DNA of 37,033 nucleotides from a virus. A program made the translations under genes and the position numbers. Below are positions 19,045 to 32,044 of the stretch, in pieces. Every line of letters begins with the position of its first letter. Position 1 is the stretch's first letter. The notes beneath the pieces were generated by a model. That model was not told the origin of the DNA, did no database searches, and was given only the letters and a program-made list of their open reading frames with translations. The stretch is taken from the IMG/VR virus record IMGVR_UViG_3300011114_000290, positions 1 to 37,033 of that record. One strand, written 5' to 3'.

Positions 19045-20487
19045 TTAGATGTTGTAGGTGTTGAGGGGGAGGAAACCGGTGGGGGCGCTGTAGGTGAAGG
19101 GTTGCTGGCCGAAGTTCATATTCACCGCCGTTGTACCGCCAGGACCACCCGCCTCTATCATTAGGAACAAACCAACCATAGAAGTGGTGAACGTTGGGTT
19201 TGCGCCTGTTGTTGGATTGCCTGTAGTGCCACCAGTGCTGTTGTACCAGACGTTGTTCTTGCCAAGCCACATTTTTGTGTTGGTAACGTCTACAGCAATT
19301 TGCACAACGTCATTAGCACTGAATGCACTAAGCGTAGCCAACAAAGATGTGCCCGAGTAAATATAAGCGCTTGCGCTACCACCAGAATAGAAGTTAAAGG
19401 AGTTGGCCGAAGTTCCCGCCATGTTTGTTGTTAGTGAAACTGTGGAAGCGGCTAGGCCAAACCCTATCCAAGCATTAGCGCTATTAGCAACAACGTTGAT
19501 TGCTTCTATGTAAAACGCGCCAGCAGTTGGAATGGCTATTGATCCACGAATCCCCAAATGCGACGTTGCGGGGTTAGTCCAAGTCAAGTTTCCATTAGTA
19601 GACAACGCAGGGTTGGCCGAGTCCAACGGATTCAACACAGCATAGTTCGCCACCGTAGTCGAGGTCAGTGTCGGCACATCAGTCAGTGAGTCGTAGGTTG
19701 ACCCGGCAGTGAGGCTGATGTTGTTGGGTGTCCAGTTGTTGGCGTTGCCGCTGGAGTCTGCTACTAGGGTGGATGTGCTGGTGGTGTTGGTGAACGGCAA
19801 ATAGAACCCATTGGTCCCGTATGCCCCGGCGTATTTGATAGGTAACCACTGGTTGTATGTGCTGAATGCACCGAAGGCTGTGGGGGCTAGGGCTTGACCG
19901 TCTACGAAGTTGACCTCGGCCATTTCGCCGTCGAAGTATCTAGCTGCACCAGCAGTCCATCGGCCAATGTTACCCGCAGCGCCATTTAGATTCCAATCGC
20001 CCACATAGTTTTGTGGTGGGGGAGTAGGAGAACCGCCGATAAAAGATGTAACTTGTACACCGTTAATGTACATCTTAATACGATCAGTTGATATGCCCGT
20101 AATAGTACCTGATGCTTGCGTAGTGTCAGCAACAACAGAAATGTGATACCAAGCAGCGGGGTCACGAAACACAGCATTAGTGCCAATACTATATGCGGTA
20201 GTTCCATTCCCTAATTGAAAGTAAAGAGTATCACTGCTTTGAAACTCCAACGCAGTTATGTTTACCGCTGAGTTTCCAGTAAAGATTTCAGACAATGACC
20301 CCAATGCGCCACGCTTGACCCACCCACTCCATGTCCAAGTAGTTCCAGAAGTAGGAGTCCCAAACGTCCTGTTCAAATACGCACTCGCACTAGACTGGAA
20401 GCGCAGGGATTTGGCTACGCTGTAGCCGCCGCCACCCCCAAGGGTGATAGGAAATCTGGAACCATGCCGAGAATGATTCCGGATCAT
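19045..20487 (-). CDS. LamG/SPRY-type lectin-like virion protein
   Basis: The protein has 480 residues. The first 200 or so form a concanavalin/LamG-like sandwich (SLRFQSSASAYLNRTFG, TWSGWVKRGALG, WYHISVVADTT, MYINGVQVTSF, YFDGEMAEVNFVDGQ). Residues about 290-480 look like a SPRY domain (FYIEAINVVANSANAWIGFG, VDVTNTKMWLGKNN, FGQQPFTYSAPTGFLPLNTY). Such proteins decorate phage particles and may bind carbohydrate. ATG 20487 follows GAGGG and is preferred to an upstream start inside the previous gene. Confidence 0.78.
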   Translation of the reverse strand: MIRNHSRHGSRFPITLGGGGGYSVAKSLRFQSSASAYLNRTFGTPTSGTTWTWSGWVKRGALGSLSEIFTGNSAVNITALEFQSSDTLYFQLGNGTTAYSIGTNAVFRDPAAWYHISVVADTTQASGTITGISTDRIKMYINGVQVTSFIGGSPTPPPQNYVGDWNLNGAAGNIGRWTAGAARYFDGEMAEVNFVDGQALAPTAFGAFSTYNQWLPIKYAGAYGTNGFYLPFTNTTSTSTLVADSSGNANNWTPNNISLTAGSTYDSLTDVPTLTSTTVANYAVLNPLDSANPALSTNGNLTWTNPATSHLGIRGSIAIPTAGAFYIEAINVVANSANAWIGFGLAASTVSLTTNMAGTSANSFNFYSGGSASAYIYSGTSLLATLSAFSANDVVQIAVDVTNTKMWLGKNNVWYNSTGGTTGNPTTGANPTFTTSMVGLFLMIEAGGPGGTTAVNMNFGQQPFTYSAPTGFLPLNTYNI

Positions 20488-20488
20488 G

Positions 20489-20815
20489 TTACAGACCCTC
20501 GCCTGGGGTGATCTCAAATGCCGCCGCTATGTCGGCTTTGAAGAAGCCATTCGGCGGCAGGTTGCCGAAGACCTCAACCGTCCCCGGCGTGATGCCGAGC
20601 GTGTAGGGGCTTGGTGATGCGCCAGGCGCGGCAACCGTGATCGTCGGTGCCGCGTTGGCCACGCCAGCCGGAGCCCAAGACAGGTACTGCGTGGTCGCGA
20701 GCAGCGAGCGAACGCGGTAGCTGGTGCAGCCGTTGTTGTTCGTCGAAAGCACTTGCACAGCTGAGGTGCCGACGAGATACGTTGGGCCGAACGGTGCAAA
20801 TGCGCTGTTGTTCAT
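20489..20815 (-). CDS. Hypothetical virion protein
   Basis: This is a 108-residue, beta-rich, Pro/Ala-rich protein (YRVRSLLATTQYLSW, ITVAAPGASPSPYTLGI, VEVFGNLPPNGFFK). It resembles small structural proteins found between coat and tail genes in environmental podoviruses. It is the first gene after the intrinsic terminator, so its level probably depends on readthrough. Confidence 0.66.
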   Translation of the reverse strand: MNNSAFAPFGPTYLVGTSAVQVLSTNNNGCTSYRVRSLLATTQYLSWAPAGVANAAPTITVAAPGASPSPYTLGITPGTVEVFGNLPPNGFFKADIAAAFEITPGEGL

Positions 20816-23610: not shown

Positions 23611-25725
23611 TCAGATTGCTCGTTCTATTGCCTCGCCACTGCTGATGTGCAGCGAGCCTTGATCCATTTCGGCAAGCAGCAAAGCCAGCTTGCCCTTGAT
23701 GTTCTCAATCTGAAGCCGGGTATTGCTCTCGATGACGGTATCGTGAGCGCGCCCGCTGATCTTCATCTCTTCGGTGTTGCGCTGCTCGGCGTTGCTGGCC
23801 TCGGTCTCGTGGGCCTTGGCTGTGACTTGCATGAGCGTGCGCTTCGTGGCGCCATCCTCGCGGATTTGGGCGATCTGGCCACGGTTGTTGATTTCCAGCT
23901 GCATCGCTTGCATTTGCTGGGTCATCTGCTCAATCTGCGCCTTGCTCTGAGCAAGTTGCATCTGAACCTGTGGCGGGATCGGTGACTTCTTGTCAATCTG
24001 CGCCAGCGGGTTGGATGCCGCCAGGCGGTCGGCAATGACGTCCGCGCCGGGGAAGTCCATATTGCGGAAGACCAGATCGCCCGCCAGCTTGAACAGTTCA
24101 GGGTTGCCGGCGAGCAGCGGCATCATGGAATCGACCGCCTGCATCCGCTTGCTGATGTAGCCTGGCCCGCTGTCCATCACCACGTCGTACTCGCCCACCG
24201 TGACGTCGTTGAGCACCTTCTGGACGCCGTATTCGTCCTGGCCCTGCTCGTTGATGGTCACCATGTCCGGCTGGCCATCCTCGCCAATGATCCGCATCAC
24301 GCGCTGGGTGTCGTAAATTTTGGGTATCAGGTCCAGCAGAATCTTGCCGGTGTGCTTGATTGAGCGAGTCAGGTTGTCGAAGTAGTGGAAATTCGACAGA
24401 TCGACCTGCTGCTGCTGGCCGTTGAGCGCCTTGCCGCTAATATTGCCGCTGGGTAGTTGGTTCGGGTCGGTAATGCCCAGCACCATTTGCAGGTCAGCAT
24501 TGATCGCATCGGCGGCGCTCATCACGCCGACCGGCGGCGGCTCGGGTTGCAGGCGGGCCGGCTGCGGGGCTGGCCTGCCATCAATGTCCGTCTGCTTGTA
24601 GCGCAGGACTGGGCTTGACTTGATGTTGGCCTGCGCCCACTCGTCCTCGTGGCCCTCGTCCTGGCCTTCCGCCAACAGCCACTTGGCCTTCGGCGCCAGC
24701 GCAATGCTCTCGGTCATACTGGTGCGCCAGAAGTTATACATGCGCTGGGGGTCTTTGGCAAACCGCACCAAACCAAACTTCTTGCGCTTGTCCTCGACGA
24801 TGAGCTGCTGCCCGTAGCACGGCACAACCGGGATATACCGGCCTGGCCAGTCCTTCTCCTCCAGCACCTCCATCGCAGTCAACTTGCACCACTTGACCAC
24901 CTTGCGGAAGCTCGGGCGTTCGTCAACGATGGTGATGCCGGCCAGCGCCAGGAACTCGTCGCTGGGCAGCTCGTCCTTGTAGATTTTGGTGCCGTCTGAG
25001 AGCATCAACAACTTGGTCTTGACCCGCTCAATGTGGAAATACTCGGCGATCCGAATGTCCTCGGTCATCACCCAATCAGCGGAATCGTCGCCCGTGCTGC
25101 GCTGAAGGAAGTTGGCGCCATCGTCCGCGCCGGGGAACATCTCGCGGAAGACGGCCTTGGGCATGACGCTGGTAATCAGGCACTGCTCGGCGTCGGAGCC
25201 GTCCGGCAAGACCGAATTCGGGTCAAAGTAGACCGTGAACGGATTTTCAACGGGCTGGATGTAGATTTCCTGGTCGAACGAGTCCTCGCGCACATAATCC
25301 GTGACGATGCGCCAGTAGCCCCAGCCCATCCGCACGGCGTAGTCAAAAGCATTGTCGTACGCCGTGTCAGCGTTGCTGTTCTCTTCGATGTGGCGGGTGA
25401 TGCCCTCAAGCGTCTGAGCGATCTTGACGTCCGCCTGGGTGTTCGTCGGGTGGACTTTGATCCTGGGCCGTTGCTGGCGCTGTTGGTTCGTGACCTGGCG
25501 AACGTAGGCGTCGATCTTGTTGATCGTCAGGCACGGCCTGGCGTCAAGGTTGCGGCTGTTCTGGATCTCCACCGGCCACTGGTCGCCGGCAGCAAATTTC
25601 AGATCGTCCAGCGCATCGGCCCGGTTTGTGGAATCGGAGTCGCCCGCCAGGCGCAGGAACTTGATCGCCGCATCAATGCGTTTGTCGGGGCTCACATCAT
25701 TGTCAGAGTAGTAGGCCATGTTCAT
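23611..25725 (-). CDS. Portal protein, P22 gp1-like
   Basis: The protein has 704 residues, close to 725 in P22 gp1. Marks include NRADALDDLKFAAGDQWP, CLTINKIDAYVRQVTNQQR, AFDYAVRMGWGYWRIVTDY, NPFTVYFDPNS and a C-terminal Gln-rich helix like the P22 barrel (VQMQLAQSKAQIEQMTQQ). Twelve copies would form the DNA channel at one capsid vertex. ATG 25725 overlaps the terminase stop as ATGA and is preferred to the TTG three codons before. Confidence 0.92.
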   Translation of the reverse strand: MNMAYYSDNDVSPDKRIDAAIKFLRLAGDSDSTNRADALDDLKFAAGDQWPVEIQNSRNLDARPCLTINKIDAYVRQVTNQQRQQRPRIKVHPTNTQADVKIAQTLEGITRHIEENSNADTAYDNAFDYAVRMGWGYWRIVTDYVREDSFDQEIYIQPVENPFTVYFDPNSVLPDGSDAEQCLITSVMPKAVFREMFPGADDGANFLQRSTGDDSADWVMTEDIRIAEYFHIERVKTKLLMLSDGTKIYKDELPSDEFLALAGITIVDERPSFRKVVKWCKLTAMEVLEEKDWPGRYIPVVPCYGQQLIVEDKRKKFGLVRFAKDPQRMYNFWRTSMTESIALAPKAKWLLAEGQDEGHEDEWAQANIKSSPVLRYKQTDIDGRPAPQPARLQPEPPPVGVMSAADAINADLQMVLGITDPNQLPSGNISGKALNGQQQQVDLSNFHYFDNLTRSIKHTGKILLDLIPKIYDTQRVMRIIGEDGQPDMVTINEQGQDEYGVQKVLNDVTVGEYDVVMDSGPGYISKRMQAVDSMMPLLAGNPELFKLAGDLVFRNMDFPGADVIADRLAASNPLAQIDKKSPIPPQVQMQLAQSKAQIEQMTQQMQAMQLEINNRGQIAQIREDGATKRTLMQVTAKAHETEASNAEQRNTEEMKISGRAHDTVIESNTRLQIENIKGKLALLLAEMDQGSLHISSGEAIERAI

Positions 25726-26999
25726 CCCATCCAATTCGCCGGGAGCGAGAAAGTCGCCCGCTTTTTAGCCTTGCGCGGCTCGTTGACCATCAGGCCAATG
25801 TAACGGAAAGCGTCCGCGCCGTGGCTGTAGTGATCGTGCAGCGGCTGTTTGGAAAAGCCGCCAGTCTCGGGGTCTACATCATATCTGTAGTGGCGCAGGC
25901 ACGAAATCCCATCCGCCGCATTCTCTCGGTCGAACCAGCAGTTCGGGAAGATTGTGCGGGCTGCGTTGATCGAGTCGGGAATCGGTACGCGGGGAATAAT
26001 GCTGACTTTATAGCCCGCCGAGCGAACAATGTCTTCGATGCTGCGGCCCGCTGCGGCAAGGGTTTGGTTTTGGGCGTCATGGGGTAGCCAGAGGGTGTCG
26101 TAGACGTAGCCGAACTTCTGCATCTCGGACATGTAGTGGCTGATGGTGCGCTGGCTGTCCTCAAGGTAGCGGATGAGCCTGGTTTCCATGCCGATGAACT
26201 GCAAGAACCAGATCGCCGTGGAGTCAGACCAGCCGAGGTCAAACACCGCGTGGACGGGTTTGCTCGGGTCGTAGTTGACGGTCGTGATCCGGCCCTGGAG
26301 CTCCGCCATCTGCATCTCGCGGGCAAAAATGGCCCCATCCACCGTCTGCCGGCAAATGCCCTCCCAGACCGTGTTGTAGGACTCAATGTCACGCTCCTTG
26401 AGCGCGTCTTTTTCCAGCCGCAGGGTCTCGGGAAACCAAGGATTGTCGGACCAGTTCACCTTGACCACCACGCAGTCAGCTGGCGGCCTGAGCACGAAGC
26501 GTTGATAGGTCTCGTCGGTCTCAAGCTCCGGGTTGAAGCTGACCCATATGCTGCTGCCGGCCTTGCGGATGGTCGGTATCAGAACATTCCACGACAGCCG
26601 GCTAACCGACTGCGCCTCCTCGCACCAACAAATATCCACTCCCTCGAAAGATTTGATATTGCTGATGTTGTTGCGCAGGCCGGCGAAGGCAAATTCAGTG
26701 CCGTTCTTGCCCCGGATCGTGGCCTGGGTGATCTCATAGAACCCCAGCAAGCCCAGCGCCTCAATCTGGTCGCACAAGAGCTTGTGGACCGAGTCTTTGA
26801 TGCTGGTCTGGAACTCGCGAGCGCACAGAATGCGCAGCGGTGACTTGGCGCCGAGGATGAGCAGGGCTCGGGCAATGCCCCAAGACTTAGCGCCGCCGCG
26901 TCCGCCGTAGAGTACTTTGTAGCGGGACGGCTCGAAAAGGCAGGCGAGCTTTTCTGGGAACTCGGCCAGGCTGATGGCCTTGTTAAGTGCTTGGCTCAT
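25722..26999 (-). CDS. terL: Terminase large subunit, Sf6 gp2-like
   Basis: This 425-residue packaging motor matches the Sf6-type (Terminase_3/PBSX-like) family along its length. Walker A is GGRGGAKS at 32-39. Walker B with the catalytic acid is ICWCEEAQ near 123-130. ETDETYQRFV and SDNPWFPE follow. The RNase H-like nuclease shows FDLGWSDSTA (Asp 254) and HGADAFRYIG (Asp near 396). Sf6 and P22 package by headful cutting, which would give circularly permuted DNA and fits the circular assembly. It overlaps terS by 17 bp. Confidence 0.95.
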   Translation of the reverse strand: MSQALNKAISLAEFPEKLACLFEPSRYKVLYGGRGGAKSWGIARALLILGAKSPLRILCAREFQTSIKDSVHKLLCDQIEALGLLGFYEITQATIRGKNGTEFAFAGLRNNISNIKSFEGVDICWCEEAQSVSRLSWNVLIPTIRKAGSSIWVSFNPELETDETYQRFVLRPPADCVVVKVNWSDNPWFPETLRLEKDALKERDIESYNTVWEGICRQTVDGAIFAREMQMAELQGRITTVNYDPSKPVHAVFDLGWSDSTAIWFLQFIGMETRLIRYLEDSQRTISHYMSEMQKFGYVYDTLWLPHDAQNQTLAAAGRSIEDIVRSAGYKVSIIPRVPIPDSINAARTIFPNCWFDRENAADGISCLRHYRYDVDPETGGFSKQPLHDHYSHGADAFRYIGLMVNEPRKAKKRATFSLPANWMG

Positions 27000-27339: not shown

Positions 27340-28563
27340 TTATTGAGGCAAACATGCCAAGCCAAATGGCTGGCCAGTTGATTCTAATGTGGCTGTCTTG
27401 CCGGTGAAGTCTTGCCAGCGTTTGATGATGACGTCTACGTACTTGGGGTCGAGTTCCATCAAACAAGAATGGCGCCCATTCTTTTCTGCGGCAATCAAAG
27501 TGGTGCCGCTGCCGCCAAAACTGTCCAACACCAAGTCGCCGCCCTTTGTGTTGTTGAGCATTTGATACTCAAACAACGCCACCGGCTTCATGGTCGGATG
27601 CTCGCCGTTGCGGCTGGGCTTGTCGAATTCTAGGATGGTGGTTTGCTTTCGGTCGGTTGCCCACAAATGTCCAGCGCCTTCCTTCCACCCGTACAGGCAC
27701 GGTTCATGCTTCCAGTGATAGTCCTGACGACCCATGACAAGCGAAGACTTCTTCCAGATCAAGCATTGCCGAACCTTCCAGCCTGCGTCCTGCGCCGCGC
27801 CTCGAAAGTTGTAGCCCTCCGAGTCTGCGTGCCAAATATAGAACACCGCGCCAGGCTTCATTGTGGAATCTGCCGTGACATAAGCATCGCGCAAGAACTG
27901 GCGGAATGCGTCATCGGCCATGCTATCGTTTTGAATGGTCAGCTTTTCTTTGGTGCCGCCTTCATACGCCACGTTGTACGGCGGATCGGTCAACCACATA
28001 TCGGCTTGCCTGCCAGCAACCAACTTTTCCATGTCGGTAATGGAGCAGGAATCCCCACACATCACCCGATGCCGCCCAAGTAACCAAACATCTCCAATCA
28101 CCGTCACCGGGGCCGCAGGCACCTCAGGCACCGCATCCTCGTCCGTCAGGCCTTCTGTGGCCTCTGTTGGGCTCAGAAGCGCATCAAGCTCATCCTTCCC
28201 AAACCCCAGCAGGTCAAGATCAAACCCGCCCTCAAGTAGCTCGCCCAACTCCAGCATCAACAGATCGTTGTCCCACTCCGCATTCATCGCCAGTTTGTTG
28301 TCGGCAATGATGAGAGCCTTGCGCTGCGGCTCGGAGAGGTGCGCCAGCTCAATGACCGGCACGGCCTCCATGCCCAGCTTGCGGGCCGCCATCAAACGCC
28401 CATGCCCGGCAATGATGCCGTTGGCACCATCCACCAGGATAGGGTTGGTCCAGCCAAACTCCTTGATGCTGGCCGCTATCTGAGCGACCTGCTCCTCGGA
28501 GTGCTTGCGGGAGTTGTTGACGTAGGGGATCAGGCCCGCCACCGGGCGCTGTTCGATCCTCAC
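27340..28563 (-). CDS. ParB-like domain fused to a DNA (adenine/cytosine-N4) methyltransferase
   Basis: The protein has 407 residues. Residues 1-95 are a ParB/Srx-type N-terminal domain (IPYVNNSRKHSEEQVAQIAA, IIAGHGRLMAARKLG). The rest is an amino-methyltransferase with DPPY at 193-196 and the AdoMet motif FGGSGTT at 349-355. The catalytic motif precedes the AdoMet motif, as in the beta group. Fusions of this sort are common in phages and islands and may methylate phage DNA against host restriction. No partner restriction enzyme is visible. GTG 28563 overlaps the previous stop as GTGA. Confidence 0.92.
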   Translation of the reverse strand: MRIEQRPVAGLIPYVNNSRKHSEEQVAQIAASIKEFGWTNPILVDGANGIIAGHGRLMAARKLGMEAVPVIELAHLSEPQRKALIIADNKLAMNAEWDNDLLMLELGELLEGGFDLDLLGFGKDELDALLSPTEATEGLTDEDAVPEVPAAPVTVIGDVWLLGRHRVMCGDSCSITDMEKLVAGRQADMWLTDPPYNVAYEGGTKEKLTIQNDSMADDAFRQFLRDAYVTADSTMKPGAVFYIWHADSEGYNFRGAAQDAGWKVRQCLIWKKSSLVMGRQDYHWKHEPCLYGWKEGAGHLWATDRKQTTILEFDKPSRNGEHPTMKPVALFEYQMLNNTKGGDLVLDSFGGSGTTLIAAEKNGRHSCLMELDPKYVDVIIKRWQDFTGKTATLESTGQPFGLACLPQ

Positions 28564-29115: not shown

Positions 29116-29376
29116 TTAATTGAATTCAACAATAGCACAAATATCAGCTTCTTGAATAATCTGATAATCCTGACCGTCCACCTTATGCGTCGGCCATTTC
29201 AAATAGTCGCCATTACCATACTTCACAAAATCCCCCACTTGCACATCCAGCGCAAGCGGCCCAACCGCCACCACCGTTCCTTCATTGAACGGCTCTTTAT
29301 TGTTGGTAATAATAATATCAGATAGTTGCCGAGTATTCGGCTTAATAACTACCTTATCATGAAGCGGTTGCAGCAT
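29116..29376 (-). CDS. GroES-like co-chaperonin
   Basis: The 86 residues follow the GroES/Cpn10 plan: LQPLHDKVVIKP at the N-terminus, a mobile-loop position with SDIIITNN, then EGTVVAVGPLALDVQVGDFV and a C-terminal DYQIIQEADICAIVE. In GroES the loop tripeptide Ile-Val-Leu docks on GroEL; here Ile-Ile-Ile could do so. T4 gp31 is the classic phage co-chaperonin, needed to fold its coat protein. A similar role for the coat at 21372 is likely but inferred. It is somewhat shorter than the usual 95 or so residues. Confidence 0.83.
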   Translation of the reverse strand: MLQPLHDKVVIKPNTRQLSDIIITNNKEPFNEGTVVAVGPLALDVQVGDFVKYGNGDYLKWPTHKVDGQDYQIIQEADICAIVEFN

Positions 29377-29380
29377 GTAT

Positions 29381-29737
29381 TTAGTCCAGAAAACGGAGTT
29401 TGAATAGGGTGGAATTTATCAGGTCGGCAATCTCGTCGACAAGATTCTGCAATTCGCTGTCTTGGGGCAGATGCTGCCGCGCCTCTTCAACGAACGATTT
29501 CATGGACTCCAGGTACGCCACCGGCTCGGTGGCCTGGTGGTAGTCCTGGGGGAAGTCTTTAAGCTGCTCGTAGCGGCCCATGGCGGCCTCGGCGAACTGG
29601 TCCGTCAGGTCAATGATCTGTGCGTAGTAGTCCCCCAGCGCCAGATGCACCGACAGGCTCTTGGTCGACCAGTGCATCAGATGAGCGTTGGTGCTGGAGT
29701 GCAGCAACGCCAGAACAAAGGCGGCAATTTCAGTCAT
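29381..29737 (-). CDS. Ferritin/Dps-like protein (DUF5856-type)
   Basis: This 118-residue helical protein has ALLHSSTNAHLMHWSTKSLS and ALGDYYAQIIDLTDQFAEAA. These match the first two helices of small phage ferritin-like proteins (DUF5856) related in shape to Dps. The His, Asp and Glu residues could bind metal, but a ferroxidase site is not certain. ATG 29737 is preferred to the ATG four codons upstream at 29749. It fits the family start and lies just where a transcript from the promoter-like elements at 29745-29771 would begin. No Shine-Dalgarno sequence precedes either ATG. Confidence 0.76.
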   Translation of the reverse strand: MTEIAAFVLALLHSSTNAHLMHWSTKSLSVHLALGDYYAQIIDLTDQFAEAAMGRYEQLKDFPQDYHQATEPVAYLESMKSFVEEARQHLPQDSELQNLVDEIADLINSTLFKLRFLD

Positions 29738-29744
29738 GTTGGCG

Positions 29745-29771
29745 ATCATAGCAAAAAAAGGTCATTGTCAA
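29745..29771 (-). promoter_or_regulatory. Candidate late promoter
   Basis: On the minus strand TTGACA (29771-29766) matches the sigma-70 -35 consensus and TATGAT (29750-29745) is one base off the -10 consensus. The spacer is 15 bp, two short of the best. It stands at the head of the long leftward operon. The expected start, about 8 bases after the -10, coincides with ATG 29737, so the mRNA could be leaderless. Confidence 0.6.
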
Positions 29772-29811
29772 TCCCTGTGGCACCAGATACACGTTTTTGA
29801 CCCGCTGCACC

Positions 29812-29922
29812 GGTACAAGCGGTACACCCCTAAAGGGGTGTGTACCGGTCTGTACCGGGTTGCGGCATAGCGCCCCGGTACAGTTGTACCGGCTTGTACC
29901 GTCTTGTACCGGTCTGTACCGG
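29812..29922. repeat. Array of nine TGTACC/GGTACA elements
   Basis: TGTACC starts at 29841, 29851, 29885, 29895, 29905 and 29915, that is, in two 10-bp-spaced groups. The inverse GGTACA lies at 29812, 29821 and 29877. Most copies extend to TGTACCGG. The pair at 29875-29892 is a perfect CCGGTACA-GT-TGTACCGG palindrome. The 10-bp period places the sites on one face of the DNA. The array fills the gap between the primase stop and the candidate late promoter, so it may bind a late regulator or act as origin iterons. Confidence 0.85.
29821..29846. other. Hairpin within the TGTACC array
   Basis: GGTACACCCC (29821-29830), loop TAAA, and GGGGTGTGTACC (29835-29846) pair almost fully, with two extra bases in the second arm. 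There is no adjacent T-run, so it is probably not a simple terminator for the primase gene. Confidence 0.5.
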
Positions 29923-31872
29923 TCATGGCAGGTCAATTTTGAGCTCATAGACCCCCGGCTCGGTCTGAAGGATTTCCTCCCGATCCAGCAATTCGGACAC
30001 CACCCGAGCGAACGCCTGCTTCTTGCTGTTGGTGCTGGAGAGCTCCGACATGGCGTAAAACACCGCCCGCCATTCCTCATGGCCAACGTATTGCCGGTCA
30101 AGAACCTTGAACGCCTCCAGCCCATCATTGGCGTTGGGGCTGCGCAGCTTGACCCTGATGGCCTTGGTGGGCTCGCCTGCCTGCACCAGCACAGCACTGG
30201 TGACCGGCTCCCCATCCTCATCAAACCACCCAGGAATAATTACTTTCTCCAGCGTGGCATATAGGGTCGGCGCCAGCTCGGCGTCCTTGCTCTTGCGCTG
30301 GATAATCTCCATCGGCGCGTCGCCCTTGGCGGGTACGATGCTGATCTCAATGTCCAGCGCACCGCGCCAAGCGCTCGATCCTCTGGCTCGGTGCTGAGTC
30401 TCTTCAGAAACGCCAGTATGGTGGACCAATATGATTGTGCAATTGAATTCCGCCATTAACATAGCGCAGGCATCAAGCATCGCCTTGGCGTCCTGGGATG
30501 AATTCTCGTCGCCGGAGTTGAAGCGGTGCAAGGTGTCTATCACGATTGCGGCGGGCTTGATCGGCAGTGCCCGGATGTGCTCGGAGACCTTGCGGTAGCC
30601 TTCTGGCGTGTCCAAATCGCAGCCGCTCTTACTCAGATACATATTAAGAGCCTGACCATTACCATGGCGCTCTTTCCAGGCCGCGATCCGGCTGCGCAGG
30701 CCATGGTGGCCCTCGCCGGCAAGGTAGACGATCGCCCCTGGCGTGACCCGATGCCCGAACCAATCCTGCTGGCCTTGGGCCATGCGCAGGCACCAGTCGA
30801 GCGTGGCGAACGTCTTGCCGCCGCCGCTCGGTCCGTGAACCATAATCAATGCGGCCTGCTGAATCCACCCCTTCACCACCCACCTAATCGGCGCTGGCTG
30901 GCGGGAGAACTCATCCGCCGGCATGAGCCAGTCGCTCACCGCTGGCTCAAGCAGCGCCGCCAAGTCATTGCCGGCCTGGACGTAATCATTGGCGTCCCCA
31001 GCTGCTGGAGGCATCACCGACCTGGCGCCGTACTTGGCGCTGGCCTGCTCGGCATAGCGCTGGCCCACGCCGCTTGCATCGTTGTCGGCAACGATCACCA
31101 AGTCTTGTTGTGCGCCAAACCGCTCCCGAAGCGCTCCGGTAACCGGGACTAGGTTGCTGGCCGAGTACGCCACAGCGCACGCCTTGCCGGTGGCTTGGTG
31201 GATCGTGGCGGCAGTGGCAAAGCCTTCGGCGATGTAGATGGTCGATCCCGGCTCGCCCAGCATCCAGAACTTGCCGCCCGTGGCGCCGCCGGGGTGGTAA
31301 CGTTTATCGCCATCTGCTGCGATGTACTGCACCGAAGCCAGATCGCCCTCGGCACTGTAGAGCGGCACCATCAGCCGCCCGTCGCCGGTGATCCTGGCGC
31401 CATTGGCGGCGATGCCCTTTCTTGCCAGATACGGATGGTCGGCACTCGCTGCACCGCCCGCTGTCCAAATCGCATCCACCGTGGTGGCGGCAACCGCCTG
31501 GCTGCGCTCCTGCTCGGCCTCCCGCGCTGCCTTGGCCTCGGCCATGCGCCGGGTGTGCGCCATTTCTTCCGCGATGGTAAGTTTCCTTCCCATCTCCGCC
31601 TGCCAGGCCTGCTCAATGCCTGCCCGCCAGCACCCGAACCGGCCTGCCGGTACGCCATCGCCAAAGGCCACGTACCAACCCGGCTTGCTGTGGCCTGGCG
31701 TGCCTTTTGTCCCGCTATTGAAGCGGTGCAGCTTGCCGTCTAGATAGATGTTCTCTGGCGGCTCCAGTCCCGCCTCAATCATTGCCTCCCGCAGCTGCTC
31801 GTCTGGTGGCTCGATGCGCCTCGGCTCGGGGAGGGCGTAGACGCCGCCGAAGATGCTAGTCAGGTCTGCCAT
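29923..31872 (-). CDS. Bifunctional primase-helicase (Toprim plus RecA-like ATPase)
   Basis: The protein has 649 residues from ATG 31872. The N-terminal part (KLHRFNSGTKG, GWYVAFGDGVPAGRFGCW) is typical of phage and plasmid primase-helicases. A Toprim domain follows with IAEGFATAA near 213-221 and VADND near 261-265. A RepA/DnaB-like ATPase has Walker A GPSGGGKT at 347-354, Walker B AIVIDTLHR near 442-450 and ILVHHTG near 481-487. It should prime and unwind DNA at the fork. A longer frame upstream would overlap the HTH gene, so ATG 31872, with a 17-bp overlap, is preferred. Confidence 0.9.
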   Translation of the reverse strand: MADLTSIFGGVYALPEPRRIEPPDEQLREAMIEAGLEPPENIYLDGKLHRFNSGTKGTPGHSKPGWYVAFGDGVPAGRFGCWRAGIEQAWQAEMGRKLTIAEEMAHTRRMAEAKAAREAEQERSQAVAATTVDAIWTAGGAASADHPYLARKGIAANGARITGDGRLMVPLYSAEGDLASVQYIAADGDKRYHPGGATGGKFWMLGEPGSTIYIAEGFATAATIHQATGKACAVAYSASNLVPVTGALRERFGAQQDLVIVADNDASGVGQRYAEQASAKYGARSVMPPAAGDANDYVQAGNDLAALLEPAVSDWLMPADEFSRQPAPIRWVVKGWIQQAALIMVHGPSGGGKTFATLDWCLRMAQGQQDWFGHRVTPGAIVYLAGEGHHGLRSRIAAWKERHGNGQALNMYLSKSGCDLDTPEGYRKVSEHIRALPIKPAAIVIDTLHRFNSGDENSSQDAKAMLDACAMLMAEFNCTIILVHHTGVSEETQHRARGSSAWRGALDIEISIVPAKGDAPMEIIQRKSKDAELAPTLYATLEKVIIPGWFDEDGEPVTSAVLVQAGEPTKAIRVKLRSPNANDGLEAFKVLDRQYVGHEEWRAVFYAMSELSSTNSKKQAFARVVSELLDREEILQTEPGVYELKIDLP

Positions 31873-32044
31873 TCGGCGCCTTAGAAAGATAGGTCGACAA
31901 CCGCTGAATCGCGGTGATGCGGGGCCGCTTGCTGCGACCTCGCTGGAGGGCAAGCACGGTACTGTAGTGCAGGCCGGTGGCCGCTGCAACGACCCGAACT
32001 TTGCGGTCTTGCAGAGCGGCAACGACTTGCTCGATGGTCATCAT
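31856..32044 (-). CDS. Small Cro-like helix-turn-helix regulator
   Basis: The 62 residues contain one helix-turn-helix (VRVVAAATGLHYSTVLALQR, then ITAIQRLSTYL). A strong AAGGAG site lies 8 nt before ATG 32044. It is the first gene on the leftward side of the divergent control region, the usual place for an autoregulating early switch. It is the best visible candidate to bind the TGTACC sites near its promoter and at 29812-29922, but that is inference. Confidence 0.8.
   Translation of the reverse strand: MMTIEQVVAALQDRKVRVVAAATGLHYSTVLALQRGRSKRPRITAIQRLSTYLSKAPNGRPD

Follow-up and report, generated by a model that had tools for sequence, protein, structure and literature searches.

What is the role of the nine copies of one short word that are packed between a primase gene and the structural genes of this virus? 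The window (the whole stretch of DNA that was analysed, a virus record of 37,033 bases) was initially annotated here as carrying either a late-gene switch or a set of origin iterons. The origin half of that proposal is strongly supported, as the array accompanies the primase even in highly divergent phages, relatives carry DnaA boxes and the word covaries with one helix of the primase, whereas the late-switch half is unsupported. Thus, the array is read as an iteron replication origin recognized by the tail of the phage's own primase-helicase, with a probability of about 0.86; we infer origin activity, binding, helicase loading and priming from the computed array, its layout and position, the stem and the helix-word data. 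The locus comprises the following features:

29923–31872, minus strand: primase-helicase, with a Toprim domain, a RecA-fold helicase of the RSF1010-RepA/T7-gp4-like type and a C-terminal winged helix.
29926–30150, minus strand: predicted winged-helix domain and proposed word reader, residues ~625–699 of the 699-aa open reading frame (ORF).
31856–32044, minus strand: small Cro/C1-type helix-turn-helix (HTH) gene that overlaps the primase start.
29812–29922, no strand assigned: probable iteron array, six TGTACC plus three GGTACA, with the extended word CGGTACA on the primase-coding strand.
29824–29841, minus strand: central hairpin, ACACCCCT-TT-AGGGGTGT on the coding strand.
29733–29783, no strand assigned: AT-rich stretch beyond the array as seen from the primase, possibly an unwinding region; its lowest 25 bp are 28% GC.
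29745–29771, minus strand: candidate late promoter of the initial annotation, TTGACA (29766–29771) and TATGAT (29745–29750) at 15-bp spacing.

The primase-helicase matches Toprim_3 and AAA_25 in Pfam, while RepA_N was not among the Pfam matches of either this protein or the HTH protein. Among solved structures, RSF1010 RepA (1g8y) is closest to it in sequence, and both T7 gp4 and RepA match it in fold. The ORF (29923–32022) encodes 699 residues, of which 1–50 are predicted to be disordered and Met51 (MADLT...) is nearly invariant in relatives; the start is therefore probably Met51, at 31872. The C-terminal domain was modelled as alpha-beta-alpha-alpha(664–680)-beta-wing-beta (pLDDT ~82–87 over most of it), and a Foldseek comparison with solved structures returned winged-helix regulators, weakly (best E value 0.06). 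The HTH protein is a probable regulator of the replication operon. In five relatives (L007, L033, L035, L037 and L040), the segment that matches residues 1–50 of the primase ORF is separated from the remainder by ~870 additional bp, which probably represent an inserted gene that parts the HTH gene from the primase gene. Past the array follow a DUF5856 gene, a Cpn10 (GroES-like co-chaperonin) gene at 29116–29376, a gene at 27340–28563 in which a ParB_N domain is fused to an N6/N4 DNA methylase, and then the terminase gene (25722–26999), portal and head genes; terminase large subunit, portal, scaffold and major head protein are all encoded in the window. About 8 bp separate the end of the −10 element of the TTGACA/TATGAT site from the likely start codon of the DUF5856 gene (ATG at 29737), and a message from this site would therefore be leaderless.

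Exact copies of TGTACC start at 29841, 29851, 29885, 29895, 29905 and 29915, and those of its inverted form GGTACA at 29812, 29821 and 29877, all within 29812–29920. This bears out the six direct and three inverted elements first reported, as well as their exact 10-bp phasing in two runs (29841/29851 and 29885/29895/29905/29915). The pair at 29877/29885, however, had been called a perfect 18-bp palindrome, yet CCGGTACAGTTGTACCGG is symmetric at only 16 of 18 positions, since its two 8-bp arms are separated by GT, which is not self-complementary. The extended form TGTACCGG is seen in seven of the nine copies, and the order on the primase-coding strand is four forward elements, one inverted, two forward, the hairpin and two inverted. 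The whole 37-kb window holds 19 exact hexamer copies, nine of them in the array, compared with 8.4±3.0 in whole-window shuffles; the most frequent hexamer within 250 bp 3′ of the primase stop reached nine copies, against a maximum of four in 2,000 dinucleotide-preserving shuffles. As in iteron origins, the array consists of several copies of one short word, mostly direct repeats, and has the gene of its putative cognate initiator adjacent: the primase-helicase lies directly 5′, and the array starts at its stop codon.

A search of related phages had been suggested with the initial annotation. In total, 228 loci were collected and grouped into 69 primase clusters, 68 of which had enough sequence for an array count. 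The array was kept at the 3′ end of the primase in most of them: 57 of the 68 carried one (P value≤0.01) within 250 bp, with a mean best count of 7.0, versus 2.5 and 2.8 in the upstream and inside-gene controls, where at least five copies were reached in 0 of 68 clusters each. After removal of the clusters that had been found via a DNA pattern, 54 of 65 still harboured at least five copies of one hexamer 3′ of the primase. In part, the refuting case named with the initial annotation (relatives that keep the gene order and lack the repeats) does occur: for a sister clade at ~68% primase identity (L067, L045, L072 and their clusters), no array was found in whole contigs of 31–33 kb; these contigs may be incomplete, and the clade still has the C-terminal domain of the primase.

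Some 35 relatives at roughly 90% primase identity or above share the identical nine-element order wherever the contig reaches far enough. In more distant phages, including ones with other neighbour genes, the place and layout are kept and the word differs (GGACA, GGTACT, GGTAAC, GGGACA or GGTTCA); across clusters, lineage-specific words include GGTACA, GGTAAC, GGGTCA, GGTTCA, GGTACG, GGGAAC and others. The usual order on the primase strand is one to four repeats, an inverted repeat, GGGGCAAAA, one or two repeats, the hairpin and two inverted repeats. The GGGGCAAAA element between the array halves is strand-oriented (GGCAAAA, 30 forward and 1 reverse), and the commonest spacing between neighbouring repeats is 10 bp (55 of 232). 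In one phage (L274; contig record G004, ~20390–20560), the same layout with the word GGGTACAA lies ~2 kb downstream of the primase beyond intervening sequence, so the arrangement is a unit of its own.

An independent scan of viral contigs for three phased copies of TGTACC recovered at least 120 stretches, versus 11 in all for the reversed word; in many of the TGTACC stretches, the array follows the gene of a same-family primase that is only 33% identical. Other stretches have the array just 3′ of different replication proteins (VapE-like, PrimPol plus AAA_25, or PrimPol plus DUF927 plus HTH_56). For example, TGTACC arrays lie by the gene end of unrelated PrimPol-type replication proteins in L124, L137, L121 and L146, which argues that the word has been reached by several non-homologous initiators. 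In isolate genomes (L093, L119, L149 and others), phased TGTACC arrays with a TATATATATA stretch are found 3′ of VapE-like proteins of 730 residues, and these resemble the known PICI-type origin. No plasmid with the same primase and array module was found that could serve as natural proof of autonomy, with no match covering 80% of the primase.

Absent from the initial annotation was the G+C-rich hairpin ACACCCCTAAAGGGGTGT, written ACACCCCT-AA-AGGGGTGT, which sits mid-array between two iteron sets. Among 23 relatives the letters of its stem vary and the pairing is kept (94% of cells paired, 44 of them compensated), and stem covariation was 0.655, compared with 0.169 after shuffling (0 of 500 shuffles reached it); the CTTTAG core is constant in this subset by construction, as it served to pick the rows. 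Independently of that choice, 24 clusters have the apex CCTTTAGG on the primase strand, against one that has it reversed, and 12 have the apex CCTATAGG, with controls at no more than one.

DnaA boxes are common, but not universal, at iteron-type origins. The window has none; in its relatives, 38 perfect boxes (TTATCCACA) from 17 clusters occur in 22.3 kb 3′ of the primase, where they flank the array, versus 0 in 43.8 kb of control sequence. Furthermore, at a distance matching the AT-rich stretch of the window, GC content in relatives dips to 41–42%, compared with 55% in the primase gene, a modest dip 50–100 bp past the hairpin. Cumulative GC skew, which had been proposed as a check, does not turn at the array and falls steadily from ~27 to 34 kb; it is uninformative as an origin test for a short linear phage record.

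These observations bear on the late-switch reading, under which the array would be bound by some regulator of the phage, conceivably its initiator, that turns the downstream operon on or off. The array does abut the TTGACA/TATGAT site ~40 bp before the next gene, and initiators bound to iterons can regulate transcription too. However, this site is not conserved alongside the array, and close relatives with the same array differ in both the next gene and the promoter; the reading fails because these change while the array stays. Together with the distance of ~2 kb between primase and array in L274 and the DnaA boxes, which would be unexpected at a switch, this makes regulation of the late genes an improbable main function.

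Distance between the words of different lineages shows almost no relation to whole-protein distance (Spearman coefficient 0.07), and windows of 12 columns were therefore slid along the protein. The top 13 of 329 windows all fall at residues 619–655 of L248 (best r=0.51, median 0.07). When the core and the remaining C-terminus were controlled for, the helix stayed correlated with the word (partial Mantel r=0.48, P value=0.0002; permutation P values are optimistic, as the clusters are kin by descent), unlike the remaining C-terminus once core and helix were controlled for (r=−0.12). Because of this shared descent, close pairs make the better case: where the cores are at least 80% identical, the helix is shared at 86% between same-word pairs versus 46% between different-word pairs, whereas the C-terminus outside the helix stands at 72 and 69%, respectively. 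Below 65% core identity, same-word pairs are few and their helix similarity is not above that of different-word pairs. Particular words also go with particular helices: GGGTCA with AERTVRNM or AERTIRNM in seven of seven clusters, GGTACG and GGTCCG mostly with EATADKK, GGTAAC mostly with AKQY, and GGGAAC with AKVY or AKTY.

Word changes track one helix of 12–14 residues in the winged-helix domain at the C-terminus, and hardly any other part of the protein; in structure prediction, this helix falls in a confidently folded helix-turn-helix/wing module. The C-terminus of the window is of a shorter subtype and was left out together with L304, so that the helix test covers the relatives of the window rather than the window itself. 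Outside its own group, the best match of this C-terminus is L304 (E=9e-7), whose whole protein is only 48% identical and which shares the word CCGGTACA, a single supporting pair.

The same covariation weighs against the small HTH protein, which the initial annotation had suggested as a reader and for which the array would be an operator. Its gene heads the primase operon and occurs in 38 of the 51 clusters that have an array, yet no homologue was detected upstream of the primase in the other 13 (for example, L077, L300 and L304), and word changes track the primase helix. The one TGTACC in the HTH promoter of the window (32088) was rejected as an array word: it resembles part of a −10 element, shows no conservation as a word and is missing from L008. 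An operator for this protein is hence very unlikely. Just as poor a candidate is a partition site for the ParB_N-methylase or a pac/cos site for the terminase, since, although both genes are nearby on the same strand and short-repeat arrays are also found at centromeres, the array follows the primase in phages with different neighbours, covaries with the primase and is flanked in relatives by DnaA boxes, which are replication-linked.

For the origin reading, a mechanism can be proposed. The C-terminal winged helix of the primase-helicase would bind the hexamer words, with several molecules lining up on the direct repeats; as 10 bp is the commonest spacing, neighbouring bound molecules would share one face of the DNA. 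The RepA-like helicase ring would thereby be loaded at the array, the flanking AT-rich side would open, and the Toprim primase would start strands, perhaps on the extruded hairpin with its CTTTAG core. Host DnaA probably helps via the flanking boxes in many relatives, and the lineage of the window may have lost these boxes or never had them. The word would be lineage-specific because initiator helix and iterons change together. More tentatively, at somewhat short of even odds, we suggest one family-wide architecture in which the word has been rewritten repeatedly, in all copies, along with the single recognition helix of a fused primase-helicase, amounting to a readable protein-to-DNA code. 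That such rewriting was driven by rivals recognizing the old word (satellites, co-infecting phages or origin-cutting nucleases) is speculation.

How an initiator changes its origin sequence when every repeat must change too is a long-standing question. Some 50 lineages with more than ten words form a natural series, with one helix tracking the word throughout, and single exchanges (Q to V/T for GGTAAC to GGGAAC) are therefore testable in the isolated domain. The collection is thus a natural data set on a replication protein and an origin that change partners together. It also assigns likely origins to hundreds of contigs from uncultured phages and to the cultured Salicola CGphi29, Idiomarinaceae 1N2-2, Alteromonas PB15 and XX1924, for which the consulted portions of the records annotate none; the rule for finding an origin would be to look 3′ of a Toprim-RepA primase. 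No published description of this origin was found in the open-licence literature on phage origins, iterons, initiators and primases, or in the CGphi29 paper.

The initial view that the array belongs to no nameable family was too strong, as its mode of action would match that of the PICI, P4, pRN1 and PLE origins, in which iterons or a stem-loop are linked to an initiator. In P4, the alpha protein, acting with ori and crr, is primase, helicase and iteron binder in one; its primase and helicase families differ from those of the window, crr is separate, and P4 is not known to have a hairpin like that of the window. The RSF1010 origin shares a RepA-family helicase, iterons and a hairpin, the latter as priming sites; there, however, RepA, RepB′ and RepC are separate proteins and RepC binds the 20-bp iterons, whereas the proposed reader in the window is the primase tail.

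In the pri-rep-ori of PICIs from E. coli and staphylococci, a primase/initiator gene is followed by element-specific iterons, and the module supports plasmid replication (PMC6092414). The likeness lies in a primase/initiator gene directly followed by lineage-specific iterons. Unlike in the PICI origin, where an AT-rich region separates the two iteron sets, the window has a G+C-rich hairpin in that place; moreover, the initiator is a Toprim plus RepA-like helicase, and the array is carried by a phage that encodes terminase, portal and capsid proteins rather than by a satellite without a full structural gene set. For pRN1 ORF904 and phage BIP-1, the consulted part of the source describes a repressor and primase-helicase operon with a winged-helix initiator and one large stem-loop directly 3′, necessary and sufficient with the operon, with neither binding motifs identified nor a hexamer array described in that part (PMC4234260). 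The window likewise has a winged-helix initiator and a stem-loop (29824–29841) 3′ of its gene, to which it adds a hexamer array; the pRN1/BIP-1 initiator is a PrimPol plus SF3 helicase, in contrast to the Toprim_3 plus AAA_25, RepA-like protein of the window. In PLE, the DNA-binding domain of the initiator RepA and the origin iterons co-vary and have been swapped as modules (PMC7145576, PMC8263062), and helix and word likewise covary in relatives of the window, although PLE RepA has a RepA_N fold, reads ~30-bp iterons and lacks a primase or helicase domain. The phage array would belong with these initiator-linked iteron origins.
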